A DNA stretch of 54,448 bases from Candidatus Woesearchaeota archaeon (GCA_016928115.1 JAFGLI010000005.1:1-54448), one strand, 5' to 3'; positions 2,498 to 45,371 are shown, numbered from the stretch's first letter. Notes: generated by a model not told the origin, from the letters alone. A program made the numbers and translations.

Positions 2498-4066
2498 TCA
2501 TCCTAAAAGTCTTTGCTCTGCATATTTTCTGTCAATAACCAATTCGCCTTTATAATTGCCGGGCTTTTCAAACATATACTCCTCAAGAATATCCTCTATC
2601 TTTCCTGATATTGCCCTTGCGCCTATCTTTTCATGTGATGCCTCTTCTGCTATAAAATCTATTGCATCATCAGTGAACCTTAAGCCTATATTATGAATCC
2701 TGAAAAAATCCTTATAATCATTTAAAGGTGTATCTTTGCTTTCATTCAATATCTTTTTAAGGTGGTCTTTGTTCAGAGGATGGTATTTAACAATCTTCTG
2801 CACCCTTCCCATGAACTCCCTTTTCATCCCGTATTTAATTAAATCTTCTCTTGATATGGGGTCTTTTTCAATAATATTCTCAAAAGCGCCTGAAGCTATA
2901 AATAAAATATGGTTTGTTGTCAACGACAGATTTTTCCCGTTTATTTCAAAAGAGTTATAGCCTCCTTCAATTAGCTTTAACAACTCTTCCTGCACACCTT
3001 CTCCGCTTACATCTTTGCCGAAAGTATTTTCAGATGCTATCTTGTCTATCTCATCAAGATAAACTATTCCCATCTGTGCAAGATAAGGGTTTTCATCTGC
3101 CTTGTAATATAAATCCATAAGAATGGATTCAACATTTTTCCCCACATATCCTGTCTTGCTGAATTTGGACATATCCTCCTCTATAAAAGGAATATTTATC
3201 TCCTCGGAAAGTTTCCTTAATGAATAAGTCTTGCCGCAGCCCGTGGGGCCTATGAATATTATATTTGTTTTTGAGGGCGGAGTATCTTTTAAAGCCTTGT
3301 TTATGTCTCCCCCGTTGTTTTTAAGCTCATCATGTATTTTTTTTCTCAATAATCCGTAATGAAAGGAAACAGCAGAGGAAAGAACCCGTTTTCCCCTCTC
3401 CTGGCCCATTATGTACTTATCTAGGGATTTTTTTATTTCAAACGGAATTTTAGTGGTTTTCAGTATGGGCTCTATTTTTCTTATTGTCTCATTTTTGTCT
3501 TTATTTATAATTATATTGCATGAATGTGTCTTATCTGATTCATTAAAAAGCAATTTTGCAATCTCTTTTTTTGTTTCATCATCATATTTTGCAATCTCTT
3601 TTTGGCAGTGCAGATATAACCTTGAAAAAAAATCATAGCTGTGGTCAATTATGTCCCGGGGCTTTTGAAAAACAAACTCATTCTCATTTTTTTCAATGTC
3701 TTTTAAATACATATTCATTATATGGCCTGTAACATCCTTTTTCTCATATTCCAGAGAAATCTCCTCCTTATCTACAGTTATGTTGCTTAGGTTTTTCATA
3801 TCCTCAAGAATATTTCCGGCTAAGCCAAGAGAATAATATAAGTCAGCCAGTTTTTTATTTTCTGCAGGAATTTTCCCCTCACAGTCTTTTTCCATCTGAT
3901 TATATCTGGAAAAATTATCTGTAATAATTTCACAAAGGGAGTTCAATTCTCTGGGCAGAAAATAGCTGTTGTCGCTGTATCTGCCAAGATAATTAAAAAA
4001 ATTCATTTGCTTTAGCTTTTCTATGGTTTTTCTCCTTTCATTATCCTTGGTCTTTTCTAAGGTCAT
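2498..4066 (-). CDS. ClpX-like AAA+ unfoldase without ClpP-docking loop
   Basis: This is a 522-aa protein. Residues about 1-210 are a helical region with no match to the ClpX zinc-binding domain. From about 215 it follows ClpX closely: a segment ending KSLDKYIMGQERGKRVL, Walker A GPTGCGKT (about 272-279), pore loop GYVG, Walker B IVYLDEIDKI (about 335), DVSGEGVQEELLKLIEG, the arginine-finger region EFMGRV, and the sensor-2 motif GARAISG. Between SGAF and EDLIKYG there are only about ten residues, where ClpX has a long insertion carrying the IGF tripeptide that docks ClpP. The ATPase and pore look intact but ClpP partnering appears lost. It is the last gene of a six-gene operon, 33 nt after the coiled-coil gene. 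ClpX is uncommon in archaea, so transfer from bacteria is possible. Confidence 0.85.
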   Translation of the reverse strand: MTLEKTKDNERRKTIEKLKQMNFFNYLGRYSDNSYFLPRELNSLCEIITDNFSRYNQMEKDCEGKIPAENKKLADLYYSLGLAGNILEDMKNLSNITVDKEEISLEYEKKDVTGHIMNMYLKDIEKNENEFVFQKPRDIIDHSYDFFSRLYLHCQKEIAKYDDETKKEIAKLLFNESDKTHSCNIIINKDKNETIRKIEPILKTTKIPFEIKKSLDKYIMGQERGKRVLSSAVSFHYGLLRKKIHDELKNNGGDINKALKDTPPSKTNIIFIGPTGCGKTYSLRKLSEEINIPFIEEDMSKFSKTGYVGKNVESILMDLYYKADENPYLAQMGIVYLDEIDKIASENTFGKDVSGEGVQEELLKLIEGGYNSFEINGKNLSLTTNHILFIASGAFENIIEKDPISREDLIKYGMKREFMGRVQKIVKYHPLNKDHLKKILNESKDTPLNDYKDFFRIHNIGLRFTDDAIDFIAEEASHEKIGARAISGKIEDILEEYMFEKPGNYKGELVIDRKYAEQRLLG

Positions 4067-4099
4067 TTTAATAATAAAGAAAATAATATTTTGTTGTTT

Positions 4100-5305
4100 T
4101 CATTCCAAATCATCACCATGAAGACCGCCTTCAGCTATTCTAAGCTCTGCCTTGTTTTTGGCTTCTTTTCCTCCATTGTAAAATGACTGCTCAATTTCAC
4201 TGGTTGCCTGGTTAAAATCTCTCATCTGCTCATCAGTATACATCTCTCCGTTCAGGGAAGAAAGGTTTTCCTCATAGTTCTTGGTTTGTTCTGTTATCCC
4301 TTCAAATAATTTATAGAGTATGTTATTCATTATACTCCTGAATTTGCCTATATGGGCCATTATCTCACCGTTCTTCTCAGTAACAGAAGTTGTCTCAATT
4401 ATGAGGTCTTTGCACATTTCACCCATATAAAGATAATCATCAAGGGCATATGAGTTGTCTTCACATATATTTATCTGCACATCAAAATTTTTAACCACAT
4501 CATTTATTACTTTATACATCTCATAAGTCCTATTATAGGAGCTTGAAAACCTTTTTTTCTCAATCTCCATTTTCCGCTTTTTTCTTAAAGAGCTTTTTAA
4601 AATAGTTTCCAGCTTTATTCTTTTTTTGGGGCTGACTCTTTGTATTGTACCTTTATCTATATTTTCCAGGTCTGATTTGTAGTTTTCTATCCTTGAGTCA
4701 ATCCTGTTTATTGTATTATCATAATCCTTTATCAGCTTCTCATACCTGAAATTGCTCTCTTTAATATTGGACCTTTTTTTCTTTAATATATCCAGATTCT
4801 GTTTTCCCTTGTATAAATTCTCTTTTACCTCTTCTCTTAATTCCATGCCGTATTCCATACATAATTCTAATTTATTTTTAGGAGAAATATCAATATTTTT
4901 GACTACTTTTTTTGGTGAAAATGCTTTTTTTATTATATCTATTAATCTTTTGGTTCCCTGCTGAACCATTCCTGGCTTTTCTTCATATTCTATTTTATCT
5001 TTGGTCATTTTATCGTAGAGGCTGTCCATTTCAGCCCTTTTATCCTTTATTTTCAGTTTTCTCGTTCTTTCATTGGCAGTTAAATCAGCTGCCTCTTTTT
5101 TATATTTATTAATCTCCTGCGGATTATAATCAATTTCTTTTTCAATTCTTTTTTCTATCTCCTCAACCGTTAAATCACCTTCAATTACCAGTTTTGTATA
5201 AGGAGACATATATTCGTCGCTTTTATTATCCTGCTCTTCAGAAACTGAATCATCTATTTTTTCTTTTTCTAAATTATCTTCTAAAGAAATAGCTTTTTCA
5301 TCCAT
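4100..5305 (-). CDS. Long coiled-coil protein of the ClpX-like operon
   Basis: This 401-aa protein starts MDEKAISLEDN. An upstream in-frame ATG at 5314 is disfavoured because a GGAG site lies 9 nt before 5305 but touches 5314. It is extremely Lys/Glu-rich, with heptad-like patterns over most of its length (about 40-110, 150-250 and 310-390) and a proline-containing break near SPKKVVKNIDISPKN. No membrane segment or enzyme motif is visible. The start overlaps the end of the small membrane-protein gene by 8 nt. It may be a scaffold or adaptor between the membrane proteins and the unfoldase; that is inference from the operon. Confidence 0.7.
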   Translation of the reverse strand: MDEKAISLEDNLEKEKIDDSVSEEQDNKSDEYMSPYTKLVIEGDLTVEEIEKRIEKEIDYNPQEINKYKKEAADLTANERTRKLKIKDKRAEMDSLYDKMTKDKIEYEEKPGMVQQGTKRLIDIIKKAFSPKKVVKNIDISPKNKLELCMEYGMELREEVKENLYKGKQNLDILKKKRSNIKESNFRYEKLIKDYDNTINRIDSRIENYKSDLENIDKGTIQRVSPKKRIKLETILKSSLRKKRKMEIEKKRFSSSYNRTYEMYKVINDVVKNFDVQINICEDNSYALDDYLYMGEMCKDLIIETTSVTEKNGEIMAHIGKFRSIMNNILYKLFEGITEQTKNYEENLSSLNGEMYTDEQMRDFNQATSEIEQSFYNGGKEAKNKAELRIAEGGLHGDDLE

Positions 5306-5600
5306 TTTTATCATCTCCGGGATTATTTTTTTCCTTATGGTAATTATTTATATCATATATTTTCTTTGCTGAATATCCAAATGCCCCCAGAACATAGAGC
5401 CAATCTGGTCCGGGCAGCCAATCTAAACCAGGAGAGGTTGCTGCAAATGAACCTAATATGCCTATGGTTAATTTAATGTATTCAGTTTCTATCTTATCCG
5501 GAATCCTGGAAAATTTTTCTTTGGTTTTGTTTAATTTTTCTTCAAGTTTTTTTCTTTTTTCCTCAGTATTTTTTTTTAATCTTTCAGTTAAGTCTTCCAT
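5298..5600 (-). CDS. Small membrane protein with N-terminal coiled coil
   Basis: This is a 100-aa protein. The first 35 residues are a charged helix (LTERLKKNTEEKRKKLEEKL). A hydrophobic stretch, about 47-80, runs through LTIGILGSFAAT and WLYVLGAFGY, and a charged tail follows. The ATG at 5600 is chosen because GGTGGT lies just upstream; an in-frame GTG at 5609 is part of that site. It lies 2 nt after the nuclease gene and overlaps the coiled-coil gene by 8 nt, so the three are translationally linked. The family is not recognised. Confidence 0.6.
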   Translation of the reverse strand: MEDLTERLKKNTEEKRKKLEEKLNKTKEKFSRIPDKIETEYIKLTIGILGSFAATSPGLDWLPGPDWLYVLGAFGYSAKKIYDINNYHKEKNNPGDDKNG

Positions 5601-5602
5601 TA

Positions 5603-6070
5603 TTACCACCGTTTTATTTTTATATTATTTATCTGGTCCTCCAGACTTGTTTTTTTATGAAAATAATAGTTTATTGTTCCAACCAAACCCAAACGCTTGT
5701 AATTTAATTTTTCCAGACAATTTTTATTCCAGAGTTTTATTTTGTGATTGTGGGCATATTGTTTTGCTCGTTCAACATAATCCTGGTTTGTAACCATAAT
5801 GCCCCTTGAATGTTTTATATTTAATAACTCCAAAACTCCCGCAAACTTAGCAACTTCTTTTAATGAAACATTTTCATTGGTTTTGTATTTGCATTCAAAA
5901 TATGTTTTTCTCAGCAAGCCTGCCCTTATATCAATCTGGTATCTTGTATTTTCTGAAAACCTTTTTTTGCTTTCTAAAATCAAATTATGCTTCAGATTAT
6001 TATAACCTAAATCATTCAGTAAATTATAAATCCATATCTCGAATTTTTTCCCCGATTCTGTTGTATTCAT
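5603..6070 (-). CDS. Mrr-like PD-(D/E)XK endonuclease
   Basis: This is a 155-aa protein. It shows the restriction-endonuclease (Mrr_cat) pattern: GKKFEIWIYNLLNDLGY near the N-terminus, then YQIDIRAG, FECKYK and later RGIMVTNQDYVERAKQYA with IKLWN. The Asp of QIDI and the Glu and Lys of ECK are the expected metal and catalytic residues, so the active site looks intact. Stand-alone Mrr-type domains cut modified or foreign DNA or act in DNA repair. The start overlaps the previous gene by 47 nt in another frame; MNTTESGKKFE is kept because the family motif begins right there. Finding a nuclease inside a membrane/AAA+ operon is unusual. Confidence 0.75.
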   Translation of the reverse strand: MNTTESGKKFEIWIYNLLNDLGYNNLKHNLILESKKRFSENTRYQIDIRAGLLRKTYFECKYKTNENVSLKEVAKFAGVLELLNIKHSRGIMVTNQDYVERAKQYAHNHKIKLWNKNCLEKLNYKRLGLVGTINYYFHKKTSLEDQINNIKIKRW

Positions 6071-6230
6071 TTTTATTGTATTCTTTATTTATGGTCTCTT
6101 CAATCTTTGATTTTTCTATGTAATGTTTTTTGAGTTCTTTTCCATTTAATTCAGAAACACAACCCCTGAAAGCAAAATAAAGCATTGTGCCTATTGCTGC
6201 ATATTTGATGGCTTTTTTTATAAGTGTCAT
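6024..6230 (-). CDS. Single-pass small membrane protein
   Basis: This is a 68-aa protein. The ATG at 6230 begins 1 nt after the stop of the upstream gene; a longer reading from 6293 would run 62 nt into that gene and is not needed. One membrane segment (about residues 8-23, AIKYAAIGTMLYFAF) is followed by a charged, helical cytosolic or external tail of about 45 residues. The tail overlaps the nuclease gene by 47 nt. The family is not recognised. Confidence 0.55.
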   Translation of the reverse strand: MTLIKKAIKYAAIGTMLYFAFRGCVSELNGKELKKHYIEKSKIEETINKEYNKNEYNRIGEKIRDMDL

Positions 6231-6231
6231 T

Positions 6232-6699
6232 TTAATTGAATTTTTTATACATGTCTGCGCCGAAATCTTTAAGCCTATCTTCAAGCTTATCATACAGTTC
6301 TCTGAACTCTTTTTTTATGCCTTCTAGTTTATTTTTTAGATCTTCACCCTTACCTCCAACATAACCTTCAGGCCTGACTATTCTTTCTATGTTATTTTTT
6401 TTATTTACAAGATAAAGGGCTTTCTGGTCGTTTTTTACCCGTATTTCAAGGTCATAATCATCAAGATTCTCAACAGTCTCAGAAGATTTAGGGCAATTTG
6501 CATATCTTATATGGTTATCAGCCCATCTTTTTACATTATTAATATCTCCCAGATATGCTATCCCGCCAAAAAGCGCACTATACAAAAACAATTTCCCGAA
6601 AAACCTCTTTACAGGCGAGTTTTTTCTGTATTGGCTTTTTTCCTTATTTTCTTTCATTTCATCAAGCCTTTTTTCAATTTCAGACAGTTTATCAGTCAT
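6232..6699 (-). CDS. Membrane-anchored protein, first gene of the ClpX-like operon
   Basis: This is a 155-aa protein. A charged N-terminal helix (1-30) precedes one membrane segment (about 33-51, FFGKLFLYSALFGGIAYLG). The remaining 100 residues include a predicted strand-rich part (DYDLEIRVKNDQKALYLVNK) and a terminal coiled coil (KLEGIKKEFRELYDKLEDRL). A strong SD (GGAGG, 6 nt before the ATG) marks the start. With the other small membrane proteins it could form a membrane platform for the operon. The family is not recognised. Confidence 0.65.
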   Translation of the reverse strand: MTDKLSEIEKRLDEMKENKEKSQYRKNSPVKRFFGKLFLYSALFGGIAYLGDINNVKRWADNHIRYANCPKSSETVENLDDYDLEIRVKNDQKALYLVNKKNNIERIVRPEGYVGGKGEDLKNKLEGIKKEFRELYDKLEDRLKDFGADMYKKFN

Positions 6700-6910: not shown

Positions 6911-7171
6911 ATGGAAAAGGAAAAACTGACAGATGAAATACTGGAAGAACTGGAAGGGGATACATTAAATGAAAAACTTGAAACTGCTGTTTTCTACAAT
7001 TACAATGTAATTTGCTTTTTAGAGAAATACCTGAAAGAGAATAAAGAAAACTTATCAAAAGATGTTAATATTGAGTTTGAAAATGGTTTTATCAAATATA
7101 AACTAAAAAACAAAGTACTTTGCTTTAAAGAAATTCCAGAAGAGGGGATTATTTACTGGCATAATGAATAA
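6911..7171 (+). CDS. Small acidic hypothetical protein, 86 aa
   Basis: Not recognised. The first half is an acidic helix (LTDEILEELEGDTLNEKLE). The second half looks like a small beta sheet (VNIEFENGFIKYKLKNKVLCFKEI) ending in IYWHNE. There is no signal or membrane segment. It is the first of two plus-strand genes separated by 19 nt, probably one transcript, divergent from the ClpX-like operon. Confidence 0.55.
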   Translation: MEKEKLTDEILEELEGDTLNEKLETAVFYNYNVICFLEKYLKENKENLSKDVNIEFENGFIKYKLKNKVLCFKEIPEEGIIYWHNE

Positions 7172-7190: not shown

Positions 7191-8078
7191 ATGGAAAATA
7201 AAAGTTATAATAATATGGAAAAAAGATTAAATTGTGAAAGAGAACTGGAAGAAAATATAGAAAGATTAGAAGAAATATCAAGTAAAAAATTTTTACATGA
7301 CCCTTTTATTCCTTACAGGATTAAAGAAATAAGTGAAGGAGATAATAAAGAATATAAAAAATATTTTATTGAAAAAATAAACTATATGAAAGAAAAAGAA
7401 ATGGTTTTTGACATAGCTAAATTTTCAGTAGAAAAAAGACTTCTTGAAGAAGGAAAACAAGCTATAGAAGAAATTATAGAAAAATATGAAAGAAAAGGCG
7501 AAGAGTTCTACTGTATTGCTGGTTATTATGCTTCAACACCAATAGTGGTTTATTCTGAATTTATTAATATCCATCCAGATAAAGAAAAATTAATTCAATA
7601 TAGTATTGAAATGCTTGAAAGAGCCATAAAAGATATGAAAGAAGGAAAATTTTATTTTCTCGCAGAAAGTGTGGCTAATCTTGGTATTGAATTTAGCAGG
7701 AATATTGGATTAAAAAATAAAATAAAAAAATTCAGAGATAAAAAGAAAAAATATATGGAAAAAAGGGTGAATTTAATTGACTTTTTAGATGAAGAAATAG
7801 AATGCCCCAAATTCATTTACCAAAAAGCCATAAAAGAAGGTTTAGGAAAAAAATCTATTCTATATCTTATGGATGGATTATCCCACAAAATAGAATCAAA
7901 ATTAGATTGTGAAATTCTAAAAGAAGACATTGATTTCTTGGCTTTTTCATATAAAAATCAAATAATATTTGAAAGAGCATATATGCCAAGATACAATCCA
8001 AATGATTCTATCCGAAAAATAATGAAAAAACAAAAAGACTGTAAAATAATATTAGATAATTTAAAACTGCAAAAATAA
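7191..8078 (+). CDS. Helical hypothetical protein, 295 aa
   Basis: Not recognised. It is almost entirely alpha-helical and rich in Lys, Glu and Ile. The spacing of helices, with small residues at turns (FYCIAGYYASTPIVVYSEF, FYFLAESVANLGIEFSRN), suggests a helical-repeat solenoid of the TPR/HEAT kind, though no consensus repeat can be aligned by eye. The C-terminal part contains IKEGLGKKSILYLMDGLSHKIE. It follows the 86-aa gene by 19 nt without a good SD. Confidence 0.55.
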   Translation: MENKSYNNMEKRLNCERELEENIERLEEISSKKFLHDPFIPYRIKEISEGDNKEYKKYFIEKINYMKEKEMVFDIAKFSVEKRLLEEGKQAIEEIIEKYERKGEEFYCIAGYYASTPIVVYSEFINIHPDKEKLIQYSIEMLERAIKDMKEGKFYFLAESVANLGIEFSRNIGLKNKIKKFRDKKKKYMEKRVNLIDFLDEEIECPKFIYQKAIKEGLGKKSILYLMDGLSHKIESKLDCEILKEDIDFLAFSYKNQIIFERAYMPRYNPNDSIRKIMKKQKDCKIILDNLKLQK

Positions 8079-8124: not shown

Positions 8125-8199
8125 AGCGGGGTGGGGCAGCCAGGAGTGCCCGGAGGGCTCATAACCCTCAGGTCGGAGGTTCAAATCCTTTCCCCGCTA
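8125..8199 (+). tRNA. Initiator tRNA-Met (CAT)
   Basis: The acceptor AGCGGGG pairs with CCCCGCT, giving the A1-U72 pair of archaeal initiators. The anticodon loop is CTCATAA on a stem ending in three G-C pairs (GAGGG/CCCTC), the second initiator hallmark. The T-arm is GGAGG TTCAAAT CCTTT. It has no intron. A TATA-like TTAAAAAT lies about 30 nt upstream. Hairpins begin right at the discriminator base. Confidence 0.93.
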
Positions 8200-12509: not shown

Positions 12510-14273
12510 ATGCCAATCAGATCTCCGATTGTCTCAGTACTGGGGCATGTAGACCATGGAAAGAGCAGCATCCTTGACTCAATTAGAGGCAGCTGTATAA
12601 TTGACAGGGAGGCAGGCAAGATAACCCAGGCAATAGGAGCTTCTATATTGCCTATAGAAACAATAAAAGAAGGATGCAAAAAATTCATACAGGACCCTGA
12701 AAAGATAAAAATCCCCGGCTTGTTGTTTATAGATACGCCAGGACATTCTGCTTTTACAACCCTTAGGAAGAGAGGAGGTTCTTTAGCAGACATAGCTATT
12801 TTGGTTATAGATATAAACGAGGGCATAATGCCACAGACAGAGGAATCAATTAATATATTGCTCCAGAACAAGACTCCTTTCGTCATAGCACTGAACAAAC
12901 TGGACTTAGTTCACGGATTCCAGCAAAAAGAGGAGCATTCTGTACTGAAAATAATAGAAAGCCAGTTTAATGAAGTTAAGAATGACATAGAAGGCAAGAT
13001 TTATGATATTGTAGGCAAATTATATGATAAATTTAAGATAGAAGCGGATTTCTTCAATAGGATTGACTTCACAAAAAAAGTGGCCATTGTACCGTGCTCT
13101 GCAAAAACAAAAATAGGGCTGCCTGAGCTGATGATGGTTATTATCGGATTGTCCCAGAAATACTTAAAGGATTCACTTGAGATACACCCTGAGGAAAAGG
13201 CAAAAGGGACTATTCTTGAGGTAAAGGAAATAAAAGGGCATGGCTGCTGCATTGATACAATAATCTATGACGGAATACTGAATGTTGATGACAACATAAT
13301 GATAGCAGGCCTTGATAATGTCATCGAAACCAAAGTGAGGGCTTTGTTAAAGCCTAAGGCATTGAATGAGATTATGGACAGAAAAAGCAAGTTTGACTCT
13401 GTTGACAGCGCTGAAGCGGCAACTGCATTAAGGATAAGTGCTCCGGGCATGGAAAAGGTCCTTTCAGGAATGCCATTTATGGCTTTTGATGAAAAGGACA
13501 GGGAAAAAACAGAAAAAGAGCTGAGGGAGCAGGTTGAGGAGGTTATTATAGATACTGACAAGTCGGGCGTTGTTGTGAAAACTGACAGCTTAGGCTCTTT
13601 GGAGGCAATGATAACCATACTGAAAGAAAATAATATTTTGATTAAAAAGGCTTCAATCGGGAATATAAGCAAGAAGGACTTTGCAGAGGCAGAGAGCAAT
13701 TATGAGCAGAACCCACTTGACTCTGTTATTCTGGGATTCAATGTCAAGGACTGCAGTGAAACAAGCGATGAGAAAGTAAAAATTATTATCGGGGACATAA
13801 TCTATAAGATTGTCGAGGACCTTGAGGAATGGAAAACGCAGAAAATAAAGGAAAAAGAGTCTATGGAAAAAAAGGGCCTTGAAAAGCCTTTCAAGATACA
13901 GTTTTTAAGGAATACTACATTCAGAAAAAGTCATCCTGCAATAATAGGTGTGGATGTTCTGGAAGGGACGCTTGTAAAAGGAATGTCTCTTATGAATGAA
14001 GAAGGAAAATTATATAATACAACAATCAAAAGCCTACAGGAGAAAAACAAGTCAGTTGAAGAAGCCCCTGCAGGAAAACAGGTGGCTGTATCCCTGCCCG
14101 ATATGACTGTAGGAAGGCAGATACATGAAGAAGATATATTTTATTCTTTCATTGATGAAAAAACCTTCAGGAAACTAAAGGAGAAATCAGATTACCTGAA
14201 TGATTCTGAAAAAAATGTTCTTAGAAAAATAGCAAAAATAATGAGAAAGAACAATCCTGTTTGGGGGGTTTAA
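12510..14273 (+). CDS. infB: Translation initiation factor aIF5B
   Basis: This 587-aa GTPase promotes ribosomal subunit joining. G-domain motifs are complete: GHVDHGKSS (G1), DTPGH (G3), NKLD (G4) and CSAKT (G5), followed by domain II, the alpha/beta/alpha domain III (KTDSLGSLEAMI) and the C-terminal domain IV that binds initiator tRNA. The length equals the archaeal core without the long eukaryotic N-terminal extension. The initiator tRNA is 4 kb away on the same strand. The start MPIRSPIVSVLGHVDHGK is the usual one. Confidence 0.96.
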   Translation: MPIRSPIVSVLGHVDHGKSSILDSIRGSCIIDREAGKITQAIGASILPIETIKEGCKKFIQDPEKIKIPGLLFIDTPGHSAFTTLRKRGGSLADIAILVIDINEGIMPQTEESINILLQNKTPFVIALNKLDLVHGFQQKEEHSVLKIIESQFNEVKNDIEGKIYDIVGKLYDKFKIEADFFNRIDFTKKVAIVPCSAKTKIGLPELMMVIIGLSQKYLKDSLEIHPEEKAKGTILEVKEIKGHGCCIDTIIYDGILNVDDNIMIAGLDNVIETKVRALLKPKALNEIMDRKSKFDSVDSAEAATALRISAPGMEKVLSGMPFMAFDEKDREKTEKELREQVEEVIIDTDKSGVVVKTDSLGSLEAMITILKENNILIKKASIGNISKKDFAEAESNYEQNPLDSVILGFNVKDCSETSDEKVKIIIGDIIYKIVEDLEEWKTQKIKEKESMEKKGLEKPFKIQFLRNTTFRKSHPAIIGVDVLEGTLVKGMSLMNEEGKLYNTTIKSLQEKNKSVEEAPAGKQVAVSLPDMTVGRQIHEEDIFYSFIDEKTFRKLKEKSDYLNDSEKNVLRKIAKIMRKNNPVWGV

Positions 14274-30692: not shown

Positions 30693-31097
30693 TTAAAATA
30701 ATTTTAACAATTCTTTTGTAGAATATACTGTTAGTTTATTTTGTTTTTTTAATTCTTTATCATTAGACCAAAGAGAACATTTTAATTTTAATGCCAATGC
30801 AAAATATTCTATGTCATAAGGATCAGGACAAATCTTTTCTGCTTTGGGAATAAAATCTTTAAATTCTGAATAAGAAAGGAAATTAATTTTAGAAGAGATT
30901 AAAGATAAAAATAATTCAAATTCTTCTTTAGATAACCTGGATTTGGATAATATCTCTTTTTCATGTTTTTTAAATTCTTTTATTAAAAAATCAGGTGCAA
31001 ATAATTTAATTTTGTCATTAAATATTAAATCCGGTGTTTTGCTATGTTTTGGGATTAATGCAGACATTATTATATTTGCATCTATCACAAGCTCCAT
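30693..31097 (-). CDS. VapC-type PIN-domain toxin
   Basis: This is a 134-aa protein starting MELVIDANIIMSAL (ATG 31097; GGGGT is just upstream). PIN acidic residues are present: Asp in VIDAN, Glu of FKKHEKE, Asp in CPDPYDIEYFALAL, and the C-terminal SNDKELK. It is a probable Mg2+-dependent ribonuclease toxin cutting tRNA or rRNA. It directly follows the RHH antitoxin gene (4-nt gap), the normal VapBC order, and unlike the remnant at 1-238 appears intact. Confidence 0.88.
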   Translation of the reverse strand: MELVIDANIIMSALIPKHSKTPDLIFNDKIKLFAPDFLIKEFKKHEKEILSKSRLSKEEFELFLSLISSKINFLSYSEFKDFIPKAEKICPDPYDIEYFALALKLKCSLWSNDKELKKQNKLTVYSTKELLKLF

Positions 31098-31101
31098 ATA
31101 T

Positions 31102-31329
31102 TTACCCCATTTCAGCATATTTTTTATGGAGAGATTTATTTATTTTTTTAGCTAATTCCAAAGCATCTTTTTCAGTCAGTTTGGATTTGGAGGTTATAGA
31201 TTTCAAAATATTCAATTCCTCAATCTTCTTTTTTATTGCAGTTCTTGCTACTTCAGACCAGTTTATTTCTCTGGATTTGTCCATTTCTTTCTTTAAGTCC
31301 TCAGGAACTGATAAAGTTATGGTTGGCAT
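31102..31329 (-). CDS. VapB-type RHH antitoxin
   Basis: This is a 75-aa protein. PTITLSVPEDLKKEMD is the DNA-binding ribbon, INWSEVARTAIKKKIEE the helix pair, and LTEKDALELAKKIN the toxin-wrapping tail. GAGGTG lies 5 nt before the ATG. The gene precedes the VapC gene in one operon and should repress it while neutralising the toxin. The C-terminal motif is shared with the antitoxin at 230-484. Confidence 0.88.
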   Translation of the reverse strand: MPTITLSVPEDLKKEMDKSREINWSEVARTAIKKKIEELNILKSITSKSKLTEKDALELAKKINKSLHKKYAEMG

Positions 31330-42379: not shown

Positions 42380-43342
42380 TTATGGTATGAACCTGAATTT
42401 TGTATTTATAAGGCCCCATTCAATAAACAACAACAGCAATCCTATTATCAAAAAGCCGTAACTCAGGTCAAAGTCCAGCCAGGCATTTTCTTTCTCTGAA
42501 ATAAACTCATTATATATTTCAGCCAGCTCCTCACGGTTCTGCGCTTCATAAAAATTCCCTCCTGTCTGGTTGGCAATTGTAATCAAAGTCTCTTTATCAT
42601 AAACAGATGATATATTATAATATTCCGGAAGATAGCCTATAGGCCCTGACTCAGAGCCTAAACCAATAGTATGTATAACCACGTGCTTTTCATTCACATA
42701 TTCTATTGCCTCGTTTACTGAATCAAAGCTGAAACTTCCGACTGTTGTGCTTCCGTCTGTAAATAAAAGTATAATTTTATGTTTATCTGAATTTACCAGC
42801 AGATTCGTGGCTGTAATAATGGCCCCCTCTATATTTGTTCCCCCTGAGTTTAGTGCATCCAGCTGATTTATCTTTTCCTTTATTTTATTTTTATTGGTTG
42901 TGAGTTCCTGCTCCACCATCGGAACCCCTGCAAACTTAACCAGCCCGAAAGAAGTCCTTGAGTCCATACTATCAATAAATTCCCAGGTTATTTCTTTCGC
43001 TGCCTCAAGCCTTGTGGGCTCAATATCTTTAGCAACCATGGAGGCACTTACATCCATTGCAATAACAAAATCATTAGTATTTGAAAAGCCGTAAACCCAT
43101 AAGACCATTCCTGATACAGCAAGAATTAAGCATAAAAGAATCCCCGCTCTCAATATAAGAATGCTTATATTCCTGGTTAAAATAGACTCCCCCGTAATCC
43201 TTTTCAATGCCTGGAAATTAGCAAATTTAATGCCCTTTTTTTTAGTATGCTTTAAAAATACAAAATGAGATATCATAAGAAGGGGTATGCTTAATAAAAA
43301 CCACAAAAACAAGGGCCTCTGGAATGTTATGTCTATCATCAT
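42380..43342 (-). CDS. Membrane-anchored VWA-domain protein (BatA-like)
   Basis: This is a 320-aa protein. Two membrane segments (about 8-26 and 56-80) and one at the C-terminus (about 296-315) flank a von Willebrand A domain at about 88-285. The metal-site motif DVSASM, then the Thr in NSGGTN and Asp in LLFTDGS form a full MIDAS. With MoxR and DUF58 upstream it matches the aerotolerance/Bat type operon, where the ATPase remodels a VWA-bearing complex. It probably faces outside or binds envelope proteins. Confidence 0.9.
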   Translation of the reverse strand: MMIDITFQRPLFLWFLLSIPLLMISHFVFLKHTKKKGIKFANFQALKRITGESILTRNISILILRAGILLCLILAVSGMVLWVYGFSNTNDFVIAMDVSASMVAKDIEPTRLEAAKEITWEFIDSMDSRTSFGLVKFAGVPMVEQELTTNKNKIKEKINQLDALNSGGTNIEGAIITATNLLVNSDKHKIILLFTDGSTTVGSFSFDSVNEAIEYVNEKHVVIHTIGLGSESGPIGYLPEYYNISSVYDKETLITIANQTGGNFYEAQNREELAEIYNEFISEKENAWLDFDLSYGFLIIGLLLLFIEWGLINTKFRFIP

Positions 43343-43373
43343 TTTCGTATTTTATCTATTATTCTTACATTTA

Positions 43374-44276
43374 TTACATATTCTGCTGCACATATTGCCT
43401 TTTTCTGAAAAATTTGAGCAGGGGGTCATAAAAATCCTCATCTGTTTTTATCTTGAGAAAATCTGATTTGGTTGCTTTGAACCTTTTTTCTATCTCAAAT
43501 TCCTCTTTTTTAACATATTCCCTGTATAATTCACGGTATTTATTCATGTCAACCTTCATTTTTTCCCCGCTGTAGGGATCTTCCAAAATATACTGGCCTA
43601 TATCCTCAGGAAGTTCGCTGTCTCTCGGGTCCCTTACCATGATGCCTATTACCTCGTAATTCTGTGAGAGCATATTCAGGTATTTGTACCAGTTATCATT
43701 CAATCCCAAAAAGTCAGAAATAATAATCAGCATTGCATTAGTGGTTAAAAAAGTTGAAGTCAGCTTGCATATTGCCTCAAAATCAAAATTACCGCCATAA
43801 TTCTCAGGATTAAGAAGCTCCTGGGTTATTTTATAATACATCCCATGCCCCATATTTGGCTCAATCTTAACTATGAACTTATCTGTAAACATCCCCATGC
43901 CAACATTGTCCCCTGCCTCAAGTATGGCATAAATCATCGTATCAATCAGCTCAGCTGCATATTCGCACTTAAGCTTCCCTGTGGATGAAAACAGCATGGA
44001 ATTGCTCACATCAAACAAAAAGAATGTATTGACTGACCTTTCAATCTCGTATTCCCTGACCAATGTTTCCTTGGCCCTTAATGTGGCTTTCCAGTCTATC
44101 TGGCTTGCATCATCATTATAATTATAAGAACGAAAGCCTGCAAATTCCATGCCTCTTCCCCTGAATGCAGAAGACCAGTTACCTTCAAGCATCTTGTTCA
44201 GTATATTTTTTTTTGTATATACCTCTAATTTTTTTATCTTGGGGGTTAAATCAAGCTTTATCTCTTTTATTGCCAT
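43374..44276 (-). CDS. DUF58 family protein
   Basis: This is a 300-aa protein. The family signature is GRGMEFAGFRSYNYNDDASQIDWKAT followed by LVREYE. The C-terminal half is a VWA-like domain (FFLFDVSNSML) with a MIDAS-like DxSxS. No membrane segment is seen, so it is cytosolic. DUF58 proteins pair with MoxR ATPases. The gene starts 78 nt after moxR and ends 31 nt before the VWA gene. Confidence 0.9.
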   Translation of the reverse strand: MAIKEIKLDLTPKIKKLEVYTKKNILNKMLEGNWSSAFRGRGMEFAGFRSYNYNDDASQIDWKATLRAKETLVREYEIERSVNTFFLFDVSNSMLFSSTGKLKCEYAAELIDTMIYAILEAGDNVGMGMFTDKFIVKIEPNMGHGMYYKITQELLNPENYGGNFDFEAICKLTSTFLTTNAMLIIISDFLGLNDNWYKYLNMLSQNYEVIGIMVRDPRDSELPEDIGQYILEDPYSGEKMKVDMNKYRELYREYVKKEEFEIEKRFKATKSDFLKIKTDEDFYDPLLKFFRKRQYVQQNM

Positions 44277-44354
44277 AGTATCCCTTGCTGATTCAATTGA
44301 AAAAGAAAATAATCCCTCATATTAGTTTAGCATATTATTTTGTTTATTTTTTAT

Positions 44355-45371
44355 TTATTCTATAGGAACCTTTTTCAGTACATCATCAATAATCTGGTCA
44401 GTGGTTATTTCCTCAGCCTGGCCTTCATAATTAAGCAGTATCCTGTGCCTTAAAATAGGATGGGCCACTTTTTTTACATCATCAGGAGTAACATATGCCC
44501 TGCCTTCCAGAAGAGCATGGACTTTTGAAGCTATGAAAAGGGAAATGCTTGCCCTGGGGCTTCCCCCGAAATCAATATATTTGCCTGTTTCAACATTATA
44601 TTTTTCAGGGTGCCTTGTAGCGTCAACTATTTTTATAATATACTTCTCTATTTTCTTATTAAGGTATATCTTCTTCACATCCCTCTGCGCCTCGATTATT
44701 TTTTCAGGCGTTAAGATGGGATTTATATCAAAATCCTGGAAATTATAAAGGCTTATGTTCCTGTGCAATATCTCCTGCTCTTCCTCAGTATCCGGATAAG
44801 ACATAAGAACCTTATAAAAAAACCTGTCAACCTGTGCTTCCGGGAGCTTATATGTACCAAGGCTTTCCAAAGGGTTCTGTGTAGCCATTACAAAAAAAGG
44901 GCTTGGCAGTGAAAAAGACTCCTTGCCTATTGTAACCTGGCGTTCCTGCATTGCCTCCAGTAAAGCAGACTGGACTTTTGGCGGAGCCCTGTTTATCTCA
45001 TCTGCAAGAACAAAATTTGCAAAAACAGGTCCTTTTACACTGTAAAAGCCTCTTCCTTCCTCATATGTGGTTATTCCTATTATATCAGTAGGCAATAAAT
45101 CAGGAGTAAACTGTATCCTTGAAAACTGGCCTCCAGTAATTCTGGCAAGAGCCCTTATTATCAGGGTCTTTGCTATCCCCGGGACACCTTCAACAAGAAT
45201 ATGGCCGTTGCATAAAATAGCCTCCATCAGGTGCTCAATTATATCCTCCTGACCCACAACTATTTTGGACAGCTCTTTTTTCAGGTCAGAGAAAATTTTC
45301 TGGTATTTATCCAGCAGTGACTTAAACTCTTCTGTATTGTACCTCTTTTTTTCAACCATGTGTTCAAACAT
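44355..45371 (-). CDS. MoxR-family AAA+ ATPase
   Basis: This is a 338-aa protein. Walker A is GVPGIAKT, Walker B is VLADEINRAPPKVQSALLEAMQE, and sensor 1 is FVMATQNPLE, the typical MoxR set, with a C-terminal lid (GGSPRASISL). It acts as a chaperone that remodels VWA proteins or metal enzymes, here presumably the DUF58 and VWA products. It heads the operon; TTTATATAAA (about 45392-45401) is about 25 nt upstream. Confidence 0.95.
   Translation of the reverse strand: MFEHMVEKKRYNTEEFKSLLDKYQKIFSDLKKELSKIVVGQEDIIEHLMEAILCNGHILVEGVPGIAKTLIIRALARITGGQFSRIQFTPDLLPTDIIGITTYEEGRGFYSVKGPVFANFVLADEINRAPPKVQSALLEAMQERQVTIGKESFSLPSPFFVMATQNPLESLGTYKLPEAQVDRFFYKVLMSYPDTEEEQEILHRNISLYNFQDFDINPILTPEKIIEAQRDVKKIYLNKKIEKYIIKIVDATRHPEKYNVETGKYIDFGGSPRASISLFIASKVHALLEGRAYVTPDDVKKVAHPILRHRILLNYEGQAEEITTDQIIDDVLKKVPIE

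Follow-up and report, generated by a model that had tools for sequence, protein, structure and literature searches.

The MoxR-vWA 'FtsH' ternary conflict systems combine an FtsH-type AAA+ ATPase with unique alpha-helical proteins and sometimes with E1, Ubl or JAB components, and such conflict systems typically swap modules while retaining a conserved core (PMC7159879, eLife 2020). The McrBC/CoCoNuT Type IV restriction systems are built from an AAA+ motor, a PD-(D/E)XK-type nuclease and coiled coils, and CoCoNuTs are reported to be nearly absent from archaea (PMC11090510). Here we analyze a six-gene operon in a 54,448-nucleotide stretch of DNA (hereafter the window) from Candidatus Woesearchaeota archaeon (GCA_016928115.1, JAFGLI010000005.1:1-54448) that resembles both kinds of system, yet lacks the defining components of each.

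As in the MoxR-vWA FtsH systems, the window operon encodes an AAA+ remodelling motor, and five related clusters carry a MoxR-type AAA+ gene together with a vWA protein gene (L146, L085, L090, L092 and L093; L085 belongs to the window's own family). The window operon differs in having transmembrane (TM) anchors and an Mrr nuclease, and its motor has a single AAA+ domain in place of the tandem FtsH arrangement. None of its six proteins matches MoxR or vWA in Pfam or NCBIfam and, since both are lacking, the operon is not a member of that class. With the McrBC/CoCoNuT systems it shares the combination of an AAA+ motor, a PD-(D/E)XK-type nuclease and coiled coils, but the motors of the window's family are ClpX-like or classical AAA+ proteins rather than the McrB GTPase; the window protein scores 18.6 bits with the AAA_5 group that includes McrB, below the cut-off of 22, and its best families are AAA_2 and ClpX. 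The nuclease is of the Mrr_cat family, not McrC, and membrane anchors are present. With PADLOC 2.0, the best matches (5e-4 to 1e-3) were to ATPase-containing models and covered the P-loop region only, leaving no convincing anti-phage match. Four of the proteins, here called s155, s89, m103 and cc404, had no convincing match in Pfam, NCBIfam, PADLOC or PHROGs. An earlier note on this DNA knew of no described system with the same set, and none was found in these four collections or in the literature searched.

The six ORFs were confirmed to lie on the minus strand, closely spaced and running from 6699 to 2498, and their coordinates bear out the description in the earlier note of same-strand genes that overlap or are separated by at most 33 nt. 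The s155 gene is followed after 1 nt by s89, which overlaps the nuclease gene by 47 nt. At the next junction, the nuclease and m103 genes overlap by 0-7 nt or are 2 nt apart, according to the m103 start codon chosen (GTG at 5609 or ATG at 5600). The m103 gene overlaps that of cc404 by 17 nt, and a gap of 33 nt separates cc404 from the ClpX-like gene. The host genome (G000) comprises 773,797 bases (about 0.77 Mb), is 91.5% complete and looks like that of a DPANN-type archaeon. GC and GC3 of the operon are the same as those of the remainder of the window, so that its base composition is ordinary, and the surrounding genes are largely housekeeping; an archaeal-type gene for an aIF5B-like translation factor is found at 12510-14273. 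No methylase or self-recognition gene accompanies the operon. A tRNA-Met gene lies at 8125-8199, 1.4 kb from the operon's 5' end, with the unassigned ORFs 6911-7171 and 7191-8078 in between, but a tRNA-linked island was rejected, as no consistent tRNA occurs in relatives. Elsewhere in the window, a PIN-like toxin ORF directly preceded by a ribbon-helix-helix-like ORF (30693-31329) is likely a toxin-antitoxin pair, and a further ribbon-helix-helix-like ORF is found at 230-484. Three genes in a row at 42380-45371, of which the outer two encode a MoxR-like ATPase and a vWA (MIDAS) protein and the middle one lies at 43374-44276, are probably the common MoxR-DUF58-vWA operon and are unrelated to the operon studied here.

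Three of the proteins are predicted membrane proteins. The first, s155 (6232..6699, 155 aa), has a basic N-terminus and one TM segment at about residues 33-51, followed by a 'GD' motif, a C-terminal beta-hairpin-like stretch that includes YLVNK, and an amphipathic tail. Searches with phmmer matched it to proteins of G426 (2.8e-13) and G046 (1.8e-8), and an iterated profile found matches in the clusters of 12-13 relatives and, among the loci searched, none outside clusters. The aligned family (alignment A7; clusters L042-L159) has as its hallmarks the basic N-terminus, the TM segment, 'GD', a beta-hairpin with 'YLxN' and the amphipathic tail, and s155 is the defining member of this new family of TM-anchored proteins. 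The second gene, s89 (6024..6230), encodes a small one-TM protein with a Cys after the TM segment. The ATG at 6230, conserved in G046, G426 and G090, is a likelier start than 6293 and yields 68 aa. Relatives of s89 were found in G046 (5.7e-7), G072 (1e-4) and G426 (9e-4). For the third, m103 (5298..5609), the ORF and its hydropathy indicate a helical N-terminus and a hydrophobic segment that is possibly membrane-embedded; no relatives were found.

The nuclease gene (5603..6070, 155 aa) encodes an Mrr-type PD-(D/E)XK protein, which matches Pfam Mrr_cat (PF04471) with 49.3 bits against a gathering cut-off of 21 (E 6.3e-13); its profile matches PDB 1y88 at 3.3e-5. The intact D...ECK residues recognized in the earlier note are indeed conserved, D47 and E59-C60-K61 being invariant in all 10 aligned sequences (alignment A4). 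The protein thus has the Mrr_cat fold and catalytic residues of Mrr and AF1548-like nucleases, but it consists of the catalytic domain only and is often in an operon with TM anchors. Mrr_cat covers residues 6-121, and the DNA-binding N-terminal domain of Mrr is absent by Pfam, which sets the protein apart from a Type IV restriction enzyme. Neither a signal peptide nor a TM segment was found in it. Relatives are present in many genomes, and the distribution is patchy: scores of at least about 54 bits were obtained in 35 of 353 genomes of the order. Members of the same family also occur as stand-alone genes without a cluster (L082, L083, L084 and L086).

The soluble coiled-coil protein cc404 (4100..5314) was also foreseen, with a length of 401 aa; the ORF gives 404 aa, and 401 is obtained only from the next in-frame ATG. 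An AF2 single-sequence model predicts a long antiparallel helical hairpin at residues 145-307, with pLDDT of 82-97 in about residues 170-280. A fold search with this model returned nothing at E <= 0.001; only generic coiled coils came up, led by those of Smc and Vipp1 with E values no better than 0.014. No sequence relatives of cc404 were detectable in 145 genomes of the order, and viral and GTDB contig collections held no close relatives of either cc404 or the ClpX-like protein.

The last gene (2498..4066) encodes a 522-aa ATPase with Pfam matches to AAA_2 (75.3 bits, 7.3e-21) and ClpB_D2-small (34.4 bits), and its best PDB matches are ClpX structures (2.8e-52). Like ClpX, it has the AAA+ core, a GYVG pore loop and the D2-small lid; the Walker A and B motifs and the pore loop are kept as GPTGCGKT, VYLDEID and TGYVG. 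It differs in carrying a new N-domain of 170 aa, which has no Pfam match and in particular no zinc-binding domain; about 170 residues corresponding to this N-domain are missing from its nearest relatives. In alignments to ClpX and the G046 homologue, the region of the IGF loop, by which ClpX docks ClpP, is deleted. The scores fall short of both ClpX equivalog cut-offs (TIGR00382, 260.8 against 359 bits; NF003745, 224.7 against 370.75 bits), and no CLP_protease gene for ClpP was found in the 91.5% complete genome. By these sequence measures the ATPase is ClpX-like but not ClpX. The genome does encode a 20S proteasome, but the protein terminates in QRLLG and lacks an HbYX motif for docking to it; the protein is therefore likelier to be a remodeller than part of a protease. 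Close relatives occur in one other genus only (46% identity in G046 and 49% in G426, over the AAA+ part). Phage ClpX proteins were considered as close relatives and rejected, since the matches were only generic AAA+. A separate ClpX-like gene at L022 (3446-4690), in the assembly of a relative, has an N-terminal zinc-finger-like stretch and possibly reflects a bacterial contaminant contig or a transfer.

The order s155-s89-nuclease recurs in G046, a genome of another family, where the s89 relative overlaps the start of the nuclease gene in an equivalent way, and both order and overlap are kept in G426. In these two congeners the cluster has retained its place on the chromosome, close to an S24e-like ribosomal protein gene, which suggests vertical inheritance. 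Six genomes (G072, G090, G057, G062, G426 and G548) have, after the nuclease, a coiled coil of 345-386 aa and then a classical AAA+ ATPase. A profile of four such ATPases (A5) was run together with the nuclease profile on the 353 genomes of the order. The two genes were found within 6 kb on the same strand in G550, G091, G048, G073, G425, G068, G108, G549 and G083, nine genomes that had contributed to neither profile. They are 9 of 15 such non-seed genomes with both genes, against a chance adjacency of about 1% per genome (12 kb in about 1 Mb). Of the 25 loci examined for an AAA+ gene that is of A5 type or related to it, 24 have another gene directly upstream, at a distance of less than 120 nt. 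Taking gene calls in relatives as the longest ORFs, uncurated, these upstream genes are of 318-434 aa in all but a few cases, the outliers including a Cdc48-type gene at L028. They are coil-rich: among ORFs of like size, their median falls on the 93rd percentile. The first three genes keep their order and their overlap, and the pair of coiled coil and AAA+ gene is repeated, which shows that the grouping exceeds chance.

A family of clusters can thus be delineated across the 353 genomes, composed of a membrane anchor, an optional Mrr nuclease, a coiled coil of 318-434 aa and an AAA+ ATPase. The window operon belongs to it by virtue of its s155-family TM anchor and of the coiled coil directly upstream of the AAA+ gene. 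The nuclease is not part of the core, since about half of the AAA+/coiled-coil clusters have no detectable Mrr gene. By its position next to the AAA+ gene, cc404 holds the slot that coiled coils hold in relatives, but homology to those proteins was not detected by sequence; hhalign likewise found none between the N-domains of the ClpX-like protein and the classical AAA+ proteins of the same slot. The motors vary, the window having a ClpX-like protein and the other clusters two or more classical AAA+ types. In G046 and G426 the ClpX-like genes belong to a separate cluster, apart from s155-s89-nuclease, and the A5 profile matched nothing in the window genome at E <= 1e-20. The simplest reading is that the motor was replaced, a ClpX-type ring taking the slot in which a classical AAA+ ring is the norm. 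Loss of the AAA+ gene in G046 on account of its ClpX-like gene was also considered, an idea weakened by G426, which has both. The earlier note had pictured a membrane platform with a nuclease and an unfoldase, to be checked by synteny. The unit and its composition of anchor, coiled coil, AAA+ and nuclease do recur; a universal nuclease and a fixed ClpX-like partner do not, the latter occupying the motor slot in the window genome only. The unit is real, and what is conserved is its architecture, whereas the motor is specific to the lineage. At L045 (11226-13697, G057), the gene directly downstream of the cluster AAA+ gene encodes a protein that combines a transglutaminase core with a P-loop-like stretch.

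The roles that had been proposed for the set, defence, plasmid control or protein extraction, are still conjectural. Our preferred reading, which we hold at somewhat less than even confidence, is of a DNA nuclease under the control of a membrane-anchored AAA+ remodelling motor, both encoded in the operon and probably acting against invaders. The s155, s89 and m103 proteins would anchor the machine in the cytoplasmic membrane, and cc404 would be a rigid adaptor linking the anchor to the AAA+ ring. The ClpX-like ring would pull on or disassemble a protein substrate without handing it over to a protease, and the Mrr-type nuclease would be the effector, held or released through this remodelling. 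A membrane event or incoming DNA might thereby be sensed and DNA cut. The kept order and overlap of s155-s89-nuclease, the linkage of nuclease and AAA+ genes in nine genomes, the coil-rich genes upstream of AAA+ genes, the cluster-only s155 anchors, the invariant nuclease residues, the patchy distribution and the lack of ClpP and E1 in the genome all point towards such a reading. Against it stand the want of a PADLOC match and of a methylase or self-recognition gene, the largely housekeeping neighbours, the stable position, and the frequent absence of Mrr. The exchange of motors and the add-on MoxR-vWA, E1 and YkuD modules fit the pattern of conflict systems (PMC7159879).

The YkuD modules bear on the main rival, in which the anchors, coiled coil and AAA+ protein build or remodel surface structures, such as those of symbiont-host contact, while the nuclease processes DNA there in an accessory role. 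We consider this unlikely but serious, and it owes its rank to the YkuD link in relatives. Genes for YkuD L,D-transpeptidases are present in 64 of the 353 genomes (for example L043 3709-4776, L046 2393-3352 and L091 2122-7315). To our knowledge, bacterial-type peptidoglycan synthesis is not known in archaea, which makes YkuD unexpected. In ten genomes (G062, G072, G543, G041, G512, G513, G144, G514, G003 and G004), YkuD and Mrr are separated by no more than about 6 kb, and YkuD is found in 18 of 35 genomes with the stronger Mrr matches versus 46 of 318 others (Fisher 2e-6, ignoring kinship). An envelope or cell-contact role would also agree with a LysM-like match, below cut-off, at L043, with the transglutaminase core at L045 and with the stable position in G046 and G426. 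But YkuD is ruled out as a component of the window system by its absence from the window genome, no wall-type enzyme is encoded in the operon, and a conserved catalytic nuclease would be unexpected in such a machine.

ThiF/E1 genes occur in clusters with partners of 375-415 aa at L019 (4285-10984), L119 (7012-15817) and L143 (2216-7601); at L019 and L119 these are joined by response regulators, a conserved protein of 121-123 aa, a ClpX-like ATPase and a protein with weak resemblance to JAB. From their gene content, these clusters look like a Ubl-type pathway, so far undescribed, that has an unfoldase of its own. Besides the 121-123 aa protein, the weakly JAB-like protein and ThiF/E1, the ClpX-like cluster of G046 and G426 has a pair of proteins of about 400 aa each. 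That the nearest ClpX-like relatives keep such company (L019, L119) would suit membrane protein extraction or quality control, in which the ring extracts membrane proteins and the nuclease is an unrelated passenger, as would the intact pore loop and the presence of the 20S proteasome. We think this quite improbable: the window genome has neither ThiF/E1 nor ClpP, the QRLLG end offers no HbYX motif, and the nuclease is conserved together with the anchors, which argues that it is no passenger. It is very unlikely that the complex imports and cuts foreign DNA as a nutrient; membrane anchors and a nuclease in a 0.77 Mb genome, possibly that of an auxotroph, would be in keeping with DNA uptake or nucleotide scavenging, but the operon has no pore or channel protein, and the Mrr domain has neither signal peptide nor TM segment. 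There is equally little probability that a conserved anchor-nuclease(-coil) operon merely has a functionally unlinked ClpX-like gene drifted in beside it, as its adjacency in the window genome only, and its other cluster in the genus of G046 and G426, might suggest, since, in a genome without an A5-type gene, it fills precisely the AAA+ slot, and its spacing of 33 nt is typical.

Beyond the membrane-anchored, nuclease-controlling motor that we prefer for the window, the clusters may represent an undescribed class of archaeal membrane machine, a possibility put forward tentatively and with the balance against it. Its core would consist of a TM-anchored beta-hairpin protein of the s155 family, a rod-like coiled coil and an AAA+ motor open to exchange, here a ClpX-type ring, and nuclease, MoxR-vWA, Ubl-conjugation and transpeptidase components would be alternative plug-in effectors. 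A machine for defence or membrane remodelling, if that is what the clusters encode, would be an uncharacterized system that recurs within one archaeal order, in tens of genomes and many families. If the reading is true, the motor of a multi-gene system would be replaceable by one of another AAA+ subfamily while the anchors, coiled coil and nuclease stay, and these genes would offer testable candidates for how archaea with small genomes handle foreign DNA or cell contact.
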